A stretch of DNA of 17,807 nucleotides from Streptosporangiaceae bacterium (GTDB lineage: Bacteria > Actinomycetota > Actinomycetes > Streptosporangiales > Streptosporangiaceae), in NCBI GenBank assembly GCA_025934635.1, contig JAICWX010000181.1, positions 1 to 17,807 of the forward strand, given 5' to 3'. The position numbers and the translations under genes are program-made. Numbering within the stretch: the first letter of the stretch is position 1; each line of letters starts with the position of its first letter. The notes under the pieces are model-generated. The model searched no databases and was not told the origin of the DNA. It worked only from the letters and a program-made list of their open reading frames with translations. Positions 7,752 to 16,711 of the stretch are shown one piece after another.

Positions 7752-7778
7752 CTTTCCCGGTAAGCACGGGCGGAGGTA

Positions 7779-7926
7779 CCCTGGGCGCAGGTTCGCAGGG
7801 CACCCCCGGTCCGCGGGAAGGACAGAGTCCACCTGTGCCCGGCCCGCTAACCGGGCCACTGACTGACAGCAGGCATTCCTCCTTTCGGCTTGCGACGCGG
7901 ACCGCAGGCGCACGAAAGGAGCCATC
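7779..7926 (+). promoter_or_regulatory. Candidate structured mRNA leader with RBS-sequestering hairpin
   Basis: Between the B3/B4 stop and the GTG at 7927 lies a dense set of complementary segments: CCCTG 7779-7783 with CAGGG 7796-7800; GGGCAC 7798-7803 with GTGCCC 7835-7840 (these two are mutually exclusive); GGAC 7820-7823 with GTCC 7827-7830; GGCCCG 7841-7846 with CGGGCC 7852-7857; and CTCCTTTCG 7879-7887 with CGAAAGGAG 7913-7921. The last stem buries the ribosome site. In addition, GGTCCGCG 7808-7815 is exactly complementary to CGCGGACC 7896-7903 in the loop of that RBS hairpin, which would make an 8-bp loop-loop contact. A possible -10 is TACCCT at 7777-7782. It matches no riboswitch class I can recognise. 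Confidence 0.5.
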
Positions 7927-10584
7927 GTGCCCGACCTGCCCGCCGAACCCAGCCTCCAGCAACTCCGCCACCAGGCCAGGGACCTGCAGCGCGCGGTACG
8001 CCGAGGTGTCCCGGACGCACTCGCCGAGGCGGTGCAGCGCTACCCGGGTGCCCGCCCGGACGCCAGCTTCCCGCTGAGCGCGGCCCAGCTGGTCGTGGCC
8101 CGGCGGTATGACTTCCCGAGCTGGACCAGGCTGCGCCGCTACGTCGAGGTCGTCGAACGGTACAGCCGCTTCCCGGGGCGGATGGCGGCGGACAGCCCGG
8201 CCGACCAGTTCCTCCGCCTGGCATGCCTCTCTTACGAAGACGACCAGCCGGAACGGTGGGTGCAGGCCCGCGCGCTCCTCGCCCGGCACCCGGAGATCAC
8301 GCAGGTCAGCGTGTACGCCGCGGCCGCCGCGGCGGATGTGCCCCGGCTCCGCGCGCACCTGGCCGGCGACCCGGGGGCAGCGGCCCGGCCGGGCGGCCCC
8401 TTCCGCTGCGAGCCGCTGTTCTACCTGGCCTACGCCCGCCACGACCCCGCCGCCGGCGCGGATGGCGTGCTCGCCAGCGCCCGGATCCTGCTCGGTGCGG
8501 GCGCCGACCCGAACGCCGGCTACCTGTGGCACGGCCTGCCCACCCCGTTCACCGTGCTGACCGGCGTGTTCGGCGAGGGCGAGCTGGGGCCGGAGCGCCA
8601 GCCGCGCCACCCGCACGCGCTGGCCCTGGCCCGCCTGCTGCTCGAGGCCGGCGCCGACCCCAACGACGGCCAGGCGCTGTACAACCGGATGTTCGAGCCG
8701 GGTAACAATCACCTGGAGCTGCTCTTCGAGTTCGGCCTCGGCACCGGCGACGGCGGCCCGTGGCGGGCCCGCCTCGGCGACGCCCTCGACCCCCCCGAGC
8801 AGCTGGTGCGCGGGCAGCTGGCGTGGGCGATCACCCACGGCATGACCGAACGGGTCCGGCTGCTCGCCGAGCACGGCACCGACCTCGTCGCGCCGTTCGC
8901 CGACGGGACCACTCCCGCGCACTGCGCGGCTGCCACCGGGCATCCCGAGCTCGTCCGCTTCCTGGTCGCCCGCGGCGCCGCCGCGCCCGACCTCGATCCG
9001 GAGCAGCGCTTCGCCGCTGCCGCCCTGGCCGCGGACCAGGTCGCGCTCGACGAGCTGCGGGCCGCCCGGCCCGGCCTGGCCCGGGAGGTCCGGGCGGCCC
9101 GCCCGGCGCTGATCGTGTGGGCGGCGGCCCAGGGCCGCCCCGGCTCGGTCGAGCTCCTGGCCGGGCTCGGCTTCGACGTCAACGCCCTGGGCCGCTCCGA
9201 CGTCCCCGCCGAGGAGCCGTGGCAGACCGCGCTGCACGTCGCGGCCATGGAAGGCCGCGAGGACCTGGCCCGGAGCCTGCTCCGGCTCGGCGCCGACCCC
9301 GGCCTGCGCGACCACCGCTTCGGCTCCACCCCGCTCGGCTGGGCCCGCTACTTCGGCCAGGAGCAGCTGGCCGGCCTGCTCGAACCGCTGACCCCCGGGG
9401 AAGAGCCCGCCGCCGGTGACGGATCCGCCCGTCCATTACCCCGAACGGGGCTGGCTCACCTGGCCGGCGAACACCGGCTGCCCCGTGGCGACCTCGAGGA
9501 TCGCGAACAGGAACGGCCGGTCCACGACCACTGTGACCGGTGGCGGCGCCTGGATCACGGCCGCCGCGGCCATCAACAGCGCGGTGGCCACCGCGGCCTC
9601 GGTACCGTGCTCGTCAACGTCGATATACGCCTTGTGCGCCACCGCGCCGATCCGCAGCGGCCCAGCTCCGGTGATGCCGCTGAAGTCAGCCTCGGCACCG
9701 AACGCCTGGACGGCACCGAGCCGCTCCAGGGCTGGAACGAGATCGAACGCCGCTTCCAGCCGGAACCGGGGCAGGGCCAGCGTGACCTCGTGCCTGGCCG
9801 CCCCGGCCAGCAGGCCGGCGAACCCGGCCGCCGCTACCTTCGGCCGCAGCTCCGCCAGCGGGCCATCCGGCAGCAGCACGGCCATGGTCAGGCCGACGTC
9901 GAGATAGGGGAGCAGCACGGCCTGGTACCCGTCCCCGCGCAGGTAGTCCCGCGTCGCCGTGCCGTGCATGACCGGGACGGTAACGCCCGGGCGGTCCGGG
10001 CCGTCCGGGTAGAACGGCGCGTCGTCCGTATCGTCCTCATCGAAGGGGCGGGTCCAGGCCGCCTTCAGGTAGACCGCGCTGGCGAGCACCAGCCTGGTCA
10101 GCTCGCCGACGGAGCCGGGCGGCAGCAGCCCGGTGATCTTGCCCTCGGTCTGCCCGGCGATCGCGGCGTTGATCGCGGCCCGTGCCTGCTCGGGCGCGGC
10201 GGCGAAATCCGCAGTAGCCAGGACGGCCCCGGCCAGGCGGCTGAGCCGGGCGGTGAACTCGGGCCGCACCGCGAACCCGGACTGGAGCCAGGCCGTGTTC
10301 GGCGCCCGGAACACCGCCGTGCCCGGGCCGGACGGGACCGCGCTCGCTTCGCCGGAATCGGGCTTGCCGTCGAGGTGCAGGACCGCGGCCAGTTCCGCCG
10401 CGGTCCGCCCGCGCGCTCCGTACCAGGCCATCAGCAGCGCGCCGGCCACGCTGGACGGCGAGAAGACCAGGTCGGCGGCACCGGCGGCCAGCACCTCGTA
10501 CAGATCCGCGCCGAATACCGCCGCTGTCCCTTCGTTGCGCACCATTCGTTCCTACCCGGACGAGATGAAACCATGGCCGGGTGA
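7927..10584 (+). CDS. Ankyrin-repeat protein; frame lacks its expected stop and runs on antisense to serpin
   Basis: GTG 7927 follows AAAGGAG by 5 nt. Residues 1-75 form the helical N-terminal module typical of actinobacterial ankyrin proteins (SLQQLRHQARDLQRAVRRG, then FPLSAAQLVVARRYDFPSW). Ankyrin units are visible near 185 (ARILLGAGADPNAGY), 237 (ARLLLEAGADPNDG), 311-350 (TPAHCAAATGHPELVRFLVARGA), 406 (GSVELLAGLGFDVNALG) and 435-480 (TALHVAAMEGREDLARSLL, GSTPLGWARYFGQ). Homology-like sequence ends at LLEPLTPGEE, about base 9405. The frame then stays open for about 390 codons, opposite the serpin gene, with poor GC3. A TGA at 9417-9419 would be reached by a 1-nt insertion in the C/G run at 9392-9400. 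The true protein is probably about 495 residues. Likely role: protein-protein binding; partner unknown. Confidence 0.75.
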   Translation: MPDLPAEPSLQQLRHQARDLQRAVRRGVPDALAEAVQRYPGARPDASFPLSAAQLVVARRYDFPSWTRLRRYVEVVERYSRFPGRMAADSPADQFLRLACLSYEDDQPERWVQARALLARHPEITQVSVYAAAAAADVPRLRAHLAGDPGAAARPGGPFRCEPLFYLAYARHDPAAGADGVLASARILLGAGADPNAGYLWHGLPTPFTVLTGVFGEGELGPERQPRHPHALALARLLLEAGADPNDGQALYNRMFEPGNNHLELLFEFGLGTGDGGPWRARLGDALDPPEQLVRGQLAWAITHGMTERVRLLAEHGTDLVAPFADGTTPAHCAAATGHPELVRFLVARGAAAPDLDPEQRFAAAALAADQVALDELRAARPGLAREVRAARPALIVWAAAQGRPGSVELLAGLGFDVNALGRSDVPAEEPWQTALHVAAMEGREDLARSLLRLGADPGLRDHRFGSTPLGWARYFGQEQLAGLLEPLTPGEEPAAGDGSARPLPRTGLAHLAGEHRLPRGDLEDREQERPVHDHCDRWRRLDHGRRGHQQRGGHRGLGTVLVNVDIRLVRHRADPQRPSSGDAAEVSLGTERLDGTEPLQGWNEIERRFQPEPGQGQRDLVPGRPGQQAGEPGRRYLRPQLRQRAIRQQHGHGQADVEIGEQHGLVPVPAQVVPRRRAVHDRDGNARAVRAVRVERRVVRIVLIEGAGPGRLQVDRAGEHQPGQLADGAGRQQPGDLALGLPGDRGVDRGPCLLGRGGEIRSSQDGPGQAAEPGGELGPHREPGLEPGRVRRPEHRRARAGRDRARFAGIGLAVEVQDRGQFRRGPPARSVPGHQQRAGHAGRREDQVGGTGGQHLVQIRAEYRRCPFVAHHSFLPGRDETMAG
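9436..10545 (-). CDS. Serpin family protein, inhibitory-type hinge
   Basis: The protein is 369 residues from ATG at 10545 (AGGA a few bases upstream) to TAA at 9438-9436, a normal serpin length. Landmarks are VFSPSSVAGALLMAWYGARG (27-46), NTAWLQ (83-88), LVLASAVYLKAAWTRPF (152-168), ALPRFRLE (257-264), DFSGIT (287-292), AHKAYIDVDEHGTEAA (303-318) and DRPFLFAI (342-349). The hinge EHGTEAAVATA has Gly and small residues at P15-P9, as in inhibitory serpins. The reactive loop (about 312-341) is Ala/Val/Ile/Pro-rich with no Arg or Lys at any plausible P1, pointing to an elastase- or subtilisin-like target. There is no signal peptide, so it should act inside the cell. It is tail-to-tail with the ankyrin gene. 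Confidence 0.93.
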   Translation of the reverse strand: MVRNEGTAAVFGADLYEVLAAGAADLVFSPSSVAGALLMAWYGARGRTAAELAAVLHLDGKPDSGEASAVPSGPGTAVFRAPNTAWLQSGFAVRPEFTARLSRLAGAVLATADFAAAPEQARAAINAAIAGQTEGKITGLLPPGSVGELTRLVLASAVYLKAAWTRPFDEDDTDDAPFYPDGPDRPGVTVPVMHGTATRDYLRGDGYQAVLLPYLDVGLTMAVLLPDGPLAELRPKVAAAGFAGLLAGAARHEVTLALPRFRLEAAFDLVPALERLGAVQAFGAEADFSGITGAGPLRIGAVAHKAYIDVDEHGTEAAVATALLMAAAAVIQAPPPVTVVVDRPFLFAILEVATGQPVFAGQVSQPRSG

Positions 10585-14746: not shown

Positions 14747-16711
14747 GTGTCCAGCCAGCAGCTTCGTATCACCCTCGCCGGAAGCGAGCATGTGGTCGAG
14801 GCGGGCACGACGGCGGGCGCGGCCCTCGGCCCCGAGCCGGGCGTCATCGCGGCCAGGGTCAACGGCGAACTGCGCGACCTGGCCAGTCAGGTCGCCGACG
14901 GGGACGCGGTGGAGCCGGTCACCATCGCCAGCGACGACGGCCGCTACATCGTGCGGCACTCGGCCGCGCACGTCATGGCGCAAGCCGTGCAGGACCTGTT
15001 CCCGCAGGCCAAGCTGGGCATCGGGCCGCCCGTGGAGAACGGCTTCTACTACGACTTCGACGTGGACAAGCCGTTCACCCCCGAGAACCTGAAGGCCATC
15101 GAGGCCAGGATGCGCCAGATCGTCAAGCAGGGCCAGCGGTTCTCCCGCCGGGTGGTGACCGACGAGCAGGCCCGGTCCGAGCTCGCCGCCGAGCCGTACA
15201 AGCTCGAGCTGATCGGCCTCAAGGGGCACCCCTCGTCCGAGGACGGCGAGTCGGTCGAGGTCGGCGGCGCGGAGCTGACCATCTACGACAACCTGAACCC
15301 GGCCACCGGCGAGCTGTGCTGGAAGGACCTGTGCCGCGGCCCGCACCTGCCGGACACCCGGGCCATCCCGGCGTTCAAGCTGATGCGCGCCGGCGGGGCC
15401 TACTGGCGCGGAAGTGAGAAGAACCCGCAGCTGCAGCGGATCTACGGCACCGCCTGGGAATCGCGGGACAAGCAGGACGCGCACCTGCGGTTCCTCGAGG
15501 AGGCCGAGAAGCGCGACCACCGCAAGCTCGGCGCGGAGCTCGACCTGTTCTCGTTCCCGGTCGAGCTCGGCAGCGGGCTGCCCGTCTTCCACCCTAAGGG
15601 CGGCATCATCCGCCGGGTGATGGAGGACTACTCCCGCCGCCGCCACGAGGAGGCCGGGTACGAGTTCGTCAACACCCCCCATGTCACCAAGGAAGACCTG
15701 TTCATCACCTCCGGGCACCTGGAGTGGTACAAGGACGGCATGTTCCCGCCCATGGTGCTGGACGGGGCCACGTACTACAACAAGCCGATGAACTGCCCGA
15801 TGCACATCCTGATCTACGCGTCGCGCGGGCGGTCCTACCGGGAGCTTCCGCTGCGGCTGTTCGAGTTCGGCACCGTGTACCGGTACGAGAAGTCCGGGGT
15901 GGTGCACGGCCTGACCCGGGCCCGCGGCTTCACCCAGGACGACTCGCACATCTTCTGCTCCCCCGGGCAGCTGCAGGACGAGCTGGCCTCGCTGCTGACG
16001 TTCGTGGTCGGGCTGCTGCGCGACTTCGGGCTGACGGAGTTCGAGGCGGAGCTGTCCACCCGGCCGGAGAAGTACGTGGGCGAGCTGTCGGAGTGGGCCG
16101 AGGCCGAGGCGGCGCTCAAGCACGCGCTCGACGTGTCCGGCCTGCCGTACGTGGTCGCCGAGGGCGAGGGCGCCTTCTACGCCCCCAAGATCGACGTGCA
16201 CGTCAAGGACGCGATCGGCCGCCGCTGGCAGCTGTCCACCCTGCAGGTGGACCTGCAGGAGCCGGTCCGGTTCGGCATCGAGTACCAGGCCGCCGACGGC
16301 ACGCGGCAGCGCCCGTACATGATCCACCGCGCGCTGTTCGGATCCATCGAGCGGTTCTTCGGCATCTTGGTCGAGCACTACGCGGGGGCCTTCCCGCCCT
16401 GGCTGGCGCCGGTCCAGGTGACCGGCATCCCCGTCACCGACGCGCACGTGCCCTACCTGGAGAAGGTCGCCGCGAGCCTGCGTGAGCAGGGCATCCGGGT
16501 CGAGGTCGACGCCAGCGACGACCGGATGCAGAAGAAGATCAGGACCGCGCAGCGGCAGAAGGTGCCGTTCATGCTGATCGCGGGCGACGACGACGTGACC
16601 GCCGGCGCGGTCTCGTTCCGGTACCGGGACGGAACGCAGAAGAACACCGTTCCGGTGGCGGACGCCGTCGCGGAGATCGTCACCGCCGTGCGCGACCGCG
16701 TCCAGGTATAG
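14747..16711 (+). CDS. thrS: Threonine--tRNA ligase
   Basis: This 654-residue protein charges tRNA-Thr. It starts at GTG 14747, with AGGAG six bases upstream. Domains: TGS at about 5-62, editing domain at about 65-240 with His71/His75 (HSAAHV) and Cys196/His200 (CRGPH); class II catalytic core at about 260-550 with zinc ligands Cys350 (NCPMH), His401 (DDSHIF) and His527 (MIHRALFGS); and anticodon-binding domain at about 555-654. Motif 2 is [13 protein letters not shown] and motif 3 is [13 protein letters not shown]. The length is typical for actinomycetes. All key residues are present. The HIT gene follows 10 bp after the stop, so they form an operon. No T-box or long leader is present upstream. 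Confidence 0.98.

Follow-up and report, generated by a model that had tools for sequence, protein, structure and literature searches.

A conserved leader RNA with two predicted pseudoknots precedes a gene family that shares an N-terminal domain

Results

A leader with an enclosed Shine-Dalgarno sequence

We analyzed a 17,807-nt contig of a Streptosporangiaceae bacterium (JAICWX010000181.1; "the window" denotes this whole stretch), in which a forward-strand gene with a GTG start at position 7927 encodes a four-helix N-terminal domain of 85 amino acids (7927-8181; AlphaFold2 prediction and profile matches), followed by an ankyrin-repeat part (8182-9440; Pfam Ank families) in a frame open to 10584. 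Directly 5' of this gene, and on the same strand, lies a leader (7777-7926) that a preliminary description had proposed to be a new riboswitch-like element. Comparison with relatives establishes this leader as a member of a conserved RNA family, with two predicted pseudoknots, an enclosed Shine-Dalgarno (SD) sequence and a -10 box at a fixed place. Judged by the genes behind it, the leader looks like a built-in control handle for one gene family with a shared N-terminal domain.

The window sequence contains the perfect 9-bp stem of the preliminary description (7879-7887/7913-7921; CTCCTTTCG/CGAAAGGAG), which encloses AAAGGAG (7915-7921) 5 nt 5' of GTG 7927, and an 8-bp complement between 7808-7815 and 7896-7903. 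The computed energies are about -24 kcal/mol for the SD hairpin and about -15 kcal/mol for the kissing duplex. The minimum free energy of the whole leader is unremarkable for GC-rich DNA (z -1.57, with 12 of 200 shuffles being as stable or more so), so one sequence alone is no proof, and proof has to be comparative.

Relatives of the leader across about eight phyla

Searching 100 related genomes with the leader DNA gave 12 places at E ≤ 0.01: eight (L001-L005, L007, L008 and L012) precede genes sharing an N-terminal protein region, and four (L006 and L009-L011) are chance. A pattern made from the shared core, run in one scan of the genome collection, identified at least 119 loci (120 matches). 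These loci span about eight phyla, as assigned from organism names, with many records being metagenome bins; taxa among the matches listed include actinobacteria, alpha-, beta- and gammaproteobacteria, Gemmatimonadota, Acidobacteriota, Planctomycetota, Verrucomicrobiota, Armatimonadota (Chthonomonadaceae) and Melainabacteria. Two of the 120 listed matches, L132 and L153, lack the rest of the RNA and are chance. At the family level the pattern was present with up to two mismatches in 60 of 297 genomes; because a reversed control pattern also matches 24 genomes, such two-mismatch matches are not trustworthy singly. Leaders turned up in 7 of 296 genomes in a covariance search across the phylum, a count that gives no frequency because 10 of up to thousands of candidates were scored per genome. 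As to a phage origin, viral_contigs held no exact match to the one pattern searched.

From these relatives we built two alignments. Alignment A1 comprises 59 rows, the window and 58 of the 80 leaders from the first 80 pattern loci; near-duplicates and L059 were left out, and L044 lacks the hairpin. The letters CCGCGGGAA..GG.C..AG.CC.CCT of A1 were set by the search pattern and GCGG by the script, which makes its values of 100% partly a matter of construction. Because part of A1 was fixed in this way, we re-collected leaders through the protein: alignment A5 comprises 53 rows, the window and 52 leaders found via a profile of the N-terminal domain (A4), each required to match a covariance model (R1) that scores neither pseudoknot, PK1 or PK2, as pairs. 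Some A5 leaders had also been pattern matches. Excluded from A5 were domain genes without a clear R1 match (L172, L191, L218, L223, L226 and L227), L180 (cut leader), L171 (nearest relative; the window stands in), second domain copies, L235-L246 and L255-L259.

Covariation identifies two pseudoknots

In A5, 93.2% of cells are paired, compared to 83.2% after shuffling and 33-42% when the strands are slid by 1-3 columns. Changes on both sides occur at 18 of 23 pairs (8.6 when shuffled) and covariation is 0.298 (0.120 when shuffled), with no measure reached by any of 500 shuffles; covariation in relatives, which the preliminary description had named as a check, is thus supported. The corresponding values for A1 are 91.6% of cells paired versus 85.6% shuffled, and covariation of 0.276 versus 0.170.

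The conserved 5' part is predicted to form a small pseudoknot. Hairpin P1 (7790-7804; 7790-7792/7802-7804, plus 7794-7800), which is weak in the window, has 82% of cells paired in A1 and 80% in A5, with changes on both sides at three of four pairs. Its loop, NAGG in general, pairs with CCUN' directly after hairpin P2 to form PK1, in the window CAGG (7796-7799) with CCUG (7832-7835). PK1 is paired in 97.2% of A5 cells and complete in 55 of 59 A1 rows; all four pairs show both-side changes in A5, the first being C-G in 25 leaders, G-C in 17 and A-U in 3. P2 itself (7820-7830; GGAC-AGA-GUCC, 7820-7823/7827-7830) is paired in 98% of A5 cells and in 59 of 59 A1 rows. In A5 its third pair is GC in 33 leaders, AU in 17 and CG in 2, and its fourth is CG in 35, AU in 10 and UA in 5.

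The second pseudoknot, PK2, is a kissing helix between GUCCGC (7809-7814), located between the two PK1 strands, and GCGGAC (7897-7902) in the loop of the SD hairpin. It is paired in 53 of 53 protein-collected leaders and 59 of 59 A1 rows, with compensatory changes at four of six pairs in A5, in keeping with the loop-loop contact on a closed SD hairpin that had been proposed. The 8-bp complement from which that proposal was drawn survives in part: its inner 6 bp are kept in 59 of 59 leaders and its two outer pairs in 15 of 59. Variants of the 3' strand (GCGGAU, GCGGGC, GCGAAC, GCGAGU and GCAGAC) track changes in the 5' strand, and R1 matches from the phylum scan show concerted changes at letters that no pattern fixed (L166, GUCUGC/GCAGAC; L167, GUUCGC/GCGAAC; L168, GCUCGC/GCGAGC). 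Among the 120 pattern matches listed, 117 have the loop hexamer GCGG[AG][CT] at the expected distance; L044 is without it, as are the chance matches L132 and L153. All of these 117 except L059 pair over six bases, and in the 116 the free letters before CCGC are GU/AC in 97, AU/AU in 10, GC/GC in 6 and G-U-containing in 3.

Between the core and the SD hairpin lies a variable linker (7836-7877) with an insert of about 14 nt that is missing in the nearest relative, as seen in the alignment with L001/L043. The inner stem and loop of the hairpin, P4 (7888-7909; 7888-7892/7905-7909), is paired in 88% of A5 cells and in 52 of 59 A1 rows, with both-side changes at all five pairs in A5. The outer stem joins the anti-SD strand (7879-7887) to the SD strand (7913-7921). 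In A1 about 82% of its cells are paired, both sides change at eight of nine pairs, and 7879-7886/7914-7921 is complete in 24 of 59 rows. Tested one by one, 29 of 53 leaders score above shuffled versions of their flanks (p ≤ 0.05), the window not being among them. Over all leaders taken together the predicted SD stem is real, but it is weaker in single sequences. Of the stems in the preliminary description, the SD stem holds in this collective sense, and what is conserved 5' of it is the small pseudoknot of P1, PK1 and P2, not the long stems that had been named. The mutually exclusive upstream helices of that description were rejected, since relatives drop them: 7779-7783/7796-7800 is kept in 3 of 59 aligned leaders and 7798-7803/7835-7840 in 1 of 59.

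A promoter at a fixed distance, and no match in Rfam

The position of TANNNT in the pattern matches identifies a putative -10 element, TACCCT, at 7777-7782, with a predicted transcription start at about 7789. TANNNT lies 37 to 29 nt 5' of CCGCGG in 105 of the 119 listed matches with enough upstream sequence, and every other 9-nt bin in these matches holds 0-4 occurrences; for the first 80 pattern loci, the -10 box was found in 72 of 81. Because of where this box lies, the transcript is predicted to begin at P1.

A scan of Rfam 15 with the leader alone gave four matches at E ≤ 10, all far below threshold, and the leader thus has no match to a known class there. Twelve further loci, with leaders of type I (the window's architecture), a shorter type II described below and variants, gave three matches at E 4-5, again far below threshold. 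The preliminary description had named three results that would speak against it, namely stems without conservation or covariation, an Rfam match to a known class, and a transcription start downstream of about 7880; none of them turned up, the start being taken as the predicted one near 7789. The whole window gave one Rfam match at E ≤ 1, below threshold and outside the leader: a drz-agam-1 ribozyme match at 15604-15674 on the reverse strand (26.7 bits versus a threshold of 37; E 0.11), which is probably chance. It lies antisense to a 654-aa reading frame that we take to encode threonyl-tRNA synthetase.

The leader accompanies one N-terminal domain

The AlphaFold2 model of the N-terminal domain has a mean pLDDT of 90.3, with helices at residues 10-25, 29-38, 50-60 and 66-80. 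The domain is found at E ≤ 1e-3 behind 115 of the 120 listed pattern matches and in none of the upstream control stretches; 35 of the proteins are rows of the domain profile itself. For the first 80 pattern loci, the domain stood behind 78 of 81, with one control match. The five listed matches without it are the two chance matches; L059, which looks frameshifted (domain E 0.048); L108, which looks broken; and L095, where the leader is followed first by an AHSA1-type gene and then, within one operon, by a domain-ankyrin gene.

In the other direction, R1 finds the leader at 28 of 30 distinct domain genes from genomes sampled by taxonomy (without G627). The remaining two are L172, with a full leader by eye, a 7-bp PK2 and an R1 score of 20 bits, and L191, whose leader is truncated. 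Both domain matches in a plasmid collection (L253 and L254) carry the leader. With G627 and genomes chosen for holding a leader added, 67 of 76 domain genes have it. L218 and L223 have type II leaders and no R1 match, L227 has a variant leader by eye, and L226 has neither an R1 match nor a plausible gene start. L235, the second gene of an operon, has no R1 match of its own, and the head of that operon carries the leader at 83 bits (L235/L268). No leader was found for L239, also the second gene of an operon, or for L258, in which the domain is fused to a ferric-reductase-like membrane protein in Sphingosinicella. In L240 the leader and the domain match are about 300 bases apart. Two genomes, G632 and G628, hold 10 and 12 domain-matching places, respectively, and a second domain match within the same reading frame occurs in L188, L189, L190, L207, L234 and L240.

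The domain is basic, with a charge of +4.4 per 100 aa versus -3.8 for the rest of the protein; it is the higher of the two in 61 of 64 proteins, and positions 14, 18 and 59 are R or K in 36 of 36. A fold search with the domain returned no usable PDB match, which excludes nothing, and the copies scanned have no clear Pfam or NCBIfam model. Part of the domain resembles Glyoxalase_8 (PF20066) weakly: 10 of 36 members match at E ≤ 1 (best 9.2e-4), and L172 reaches 25.0 bits against a cut-off of 23.7.

A shorter leader with the same core

Where the domain belongs to a divergent branch and is fused to glyoxalase, its gene follows a shorter type II leader that shares the core, in seven of seven loci examined: L218/L247 and L223, with Kribbella among the hosts, and five on rhizobial plasmids (L248-L252), the genes being glyoxalases (VOC). 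Among six plasmid records that encode a type II-like protein, H2 was left out. The type II leader runs in the order GUAGG-GCGC, a CGGC/GCCG hairpin, GGGC-loop-GCCC and RCCUAC; all seven pair at PK1, at the inner hairpin and at P2, and PK2 is absent. Because the core here occurs without PK2, it is separable from the SD hairpin, as in an aptamer and its platform. These leaders lie some 80 bases ahead of position 701 in L248-L252. A second GUAG close to the start codon is an alternative partner that CCUAC could take in four of the seven (L248, L249, L250 and L252, by eye), possibly as a different expression platform. Single-sequence searches for the type II domain, probably insensitive, gave matches in 0 of 149 and 1 of 150 genomes, the one being the query's own.

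Changing C-terminal parts and few recurring neighbors

Ankyrin repeats are joined to the domain in 30 of 39 scanned proteins. Other fusions are to Methyltransf_25 (L048), PNP_UDP_1 (L098), APH (L172), DUF1835 (L214), FliM (L220), Glyoxalase (L218, and after ankyrin in L222), PhyH (L225) and Ferric_reduct (L258); in a further fusion, to Beta-lactamase (L170), the N-terminal domain is recognized by eye only. We compared neighborhoods at 59 of the first 80 loci, after dropping same-genus repeats and counting frames of at least 130 aa: few neighbors recur, the largest recurring family being present at 6 of 59 loci. PADLOC matches among the 39 proteins are PDC-M72A in 26, Ankyrin in 12 and mad2 in 1. 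We rejected a reading as a defense system, given that the one PDC-M72A match inspected, that of the window, falls in the ankyrin part of the protein and recurring neighbors are few.

The ankyrin frame of the window (7927-10584) has no stop until 10584 and runs antisense to a serpin gene on the reverse strand (9436-10545; PF00079, 4.5e-80). In the nearest relative, L043, the ankyrin frame is likewise open, to the contig end.

Discussion

A cis-acting translational switch whose OFF state is held by the kissing loop is, as a whole, the best explanation of these leaders, and we give it about an even chance. The transcript would start at P1, and P1, PK1 and P2 would together form a compact core at the 5' end, displaying GUCCGC. 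This strand would kiss the GCGGAC loop of the SD hairpin and lock the hairpin shut; with the core out of that state, the SD hairpin would be less stable and ribosomes could start. It is quite likely that the closed state means translation is off, and PK2 formation would keep it off because PK2 joins the folded core to the closed hairpin.

What sets the state of the core is a separate question. That the basic N-terminal domain of the product binds the core, resulting in feedback repression, is the weaker part of our model; we place this predicted binding somewhat short of an even chance. We favor the domain as the input because the association follows the domain whatever the effector, because recurring neighbors are few and because the domain is basic. 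That the near-constant partner is a domain of a protein, and not a pathway, agrees with protein feedback no less than with a metabolite. Weighing against this preference, and leaving it only slight, is that common descent of one riboswitch-controlled gene family would give the same association. More tentatively, promoter, kissing-loop RNA and N-terminal RNA-binding domain could form a self-contained header placed on unrelated effectors (ankyrin, glyoxalase, kinase-like, methyltransferase, beta-lactamase-like and others), with each protein controlling its own translation via its first 85 residues, possibly already as a nascent chain, and with the three parts occurring together as one unit in many phyla.

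A metabolite or ion riboswitch is a serious rival to protein feedback, even if we consider it rather doubtful. The P1-PK1-P2 core would then be an aptamer, and ligand binding would dock PK2 and shut the SD hairpin, as in cobalamin riboswitches. Conserved unpaired letters in the core, the distribution over about eight phyla and the presence, among the fusion partners, of enzymes that might have one compound as their common target all fit this proposal. So does an aptamer-like core that is more conserved than the expression platform: type I and the seven type II leaders share the core, and their platforms differ. However, riboswitches commonly, if not obligatorily, precede unrelated genes of one pathway, and behind this leader we find no unrelated gene family: the same domain follows in 115 of 120 listed matches, and at L095 the domain gene is next in the operon. 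The loci also share no neighborhood (at most 6 of 59), and a match at threshold in Rfam is absent.

It is improbable that another trans-acting factor, a protein or small RNA, binds the core, or that the main role of the leader lies in mRNA stability or ribosome standby. A conserved core could be the site of any factor, but it is hard to name one that is common to about eight phyla and yet needed only by a sparse gene family, and the enclosed SD and PK2 point to initiation.

RNA thermometers are marginally stable SD hairpins with little conserved sequence. One that melts on warming would account for an SD enclosed in a hairpin; we nevertheless reject it as very unlikely. The core letters and the pseudoknots are shared between phyla, and with computed energies far from marginal, the SD hairpin and the kissing duplex are not expected to melt at physiological temperatures. 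Chance complementarity in GC-rich DNA, which the well-folding shuffles of the window and the two chance matches among the 120 might suggest, is rejected with near certainty given the compensatory changes in the 53 protein-collected leaders, reached in 0 of 500 shuffles.

Among the papers listed by our literature searches, which do not prove absence, there is no report of such a leader; in particular, the word "ankyrin" does not occur in the main texts of three structured-RNA surveys (PMC11109978, PMC8632094, PMC6429828). The leader represents one more widespread family of structured RNA, and one that nothing in Rfam 15 matches. Sensing by the domain would make the family an RNA-protein regulatory cassette carried by unrelated proteins of many phyla. 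Sensing of a metabolite would make it a new riboswitch class, and the ligand would explain a large, functionally uncharacterized family of ankyrin and enzyme fusions. Both readings can be put directly to the test, using a small RNA and a protein of 85 residues.

Among known systems, the closest in operation is the cobalamin riboswitch (RF00174). There, a kissing contact between loops conveys the state of the 5' domain to the platform that follows (PMC9600662). Similarly, our leader has a 5' domain with a loop that makes such a contact with the loop of a hairpin in the expression platform, with PK2 paired in every protein-collected leader and supported by covariation. Unlike the cobalamin riboswitch, the leader has a different core and no covariance-model match at E ≤ 10, and the downstream gene encodes the domain and ankyrin repeats rather than a B12 function. 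The leader works like a cobalamin riboswitch but is not a member of that class, for which a kissing loop alone is not enough.

The pnuC motif is described as a pseudoknotted leader able to block the ribosome-binding site of a single gene family (PMC8632094), and according to a second paper it is the NAD+-II riboswitch (PMC7749635). Both it and our leader are pseudoknotted and act, or are predicted to act, at the ribosome-binding site of one gene family; our leader differs from it in structure and genes and has no Rfam match.

The autoregulatory leaders of ribosomal proteins, such as S15, L20 and the like, offer a third comparison. Unlike these, our leader would have as its partner an unnamed N-terminal domain that sits on changing C-terminal parts in about eight phyla, with binding only predicted. 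Like them, it is a pseudoknotted 5' leader before a gene whose product may bind that leader, and it controls, by this model, one gene family: the leader is confined to domain genes and their operons, and 28 of 30 such genes in turn carry the leader.
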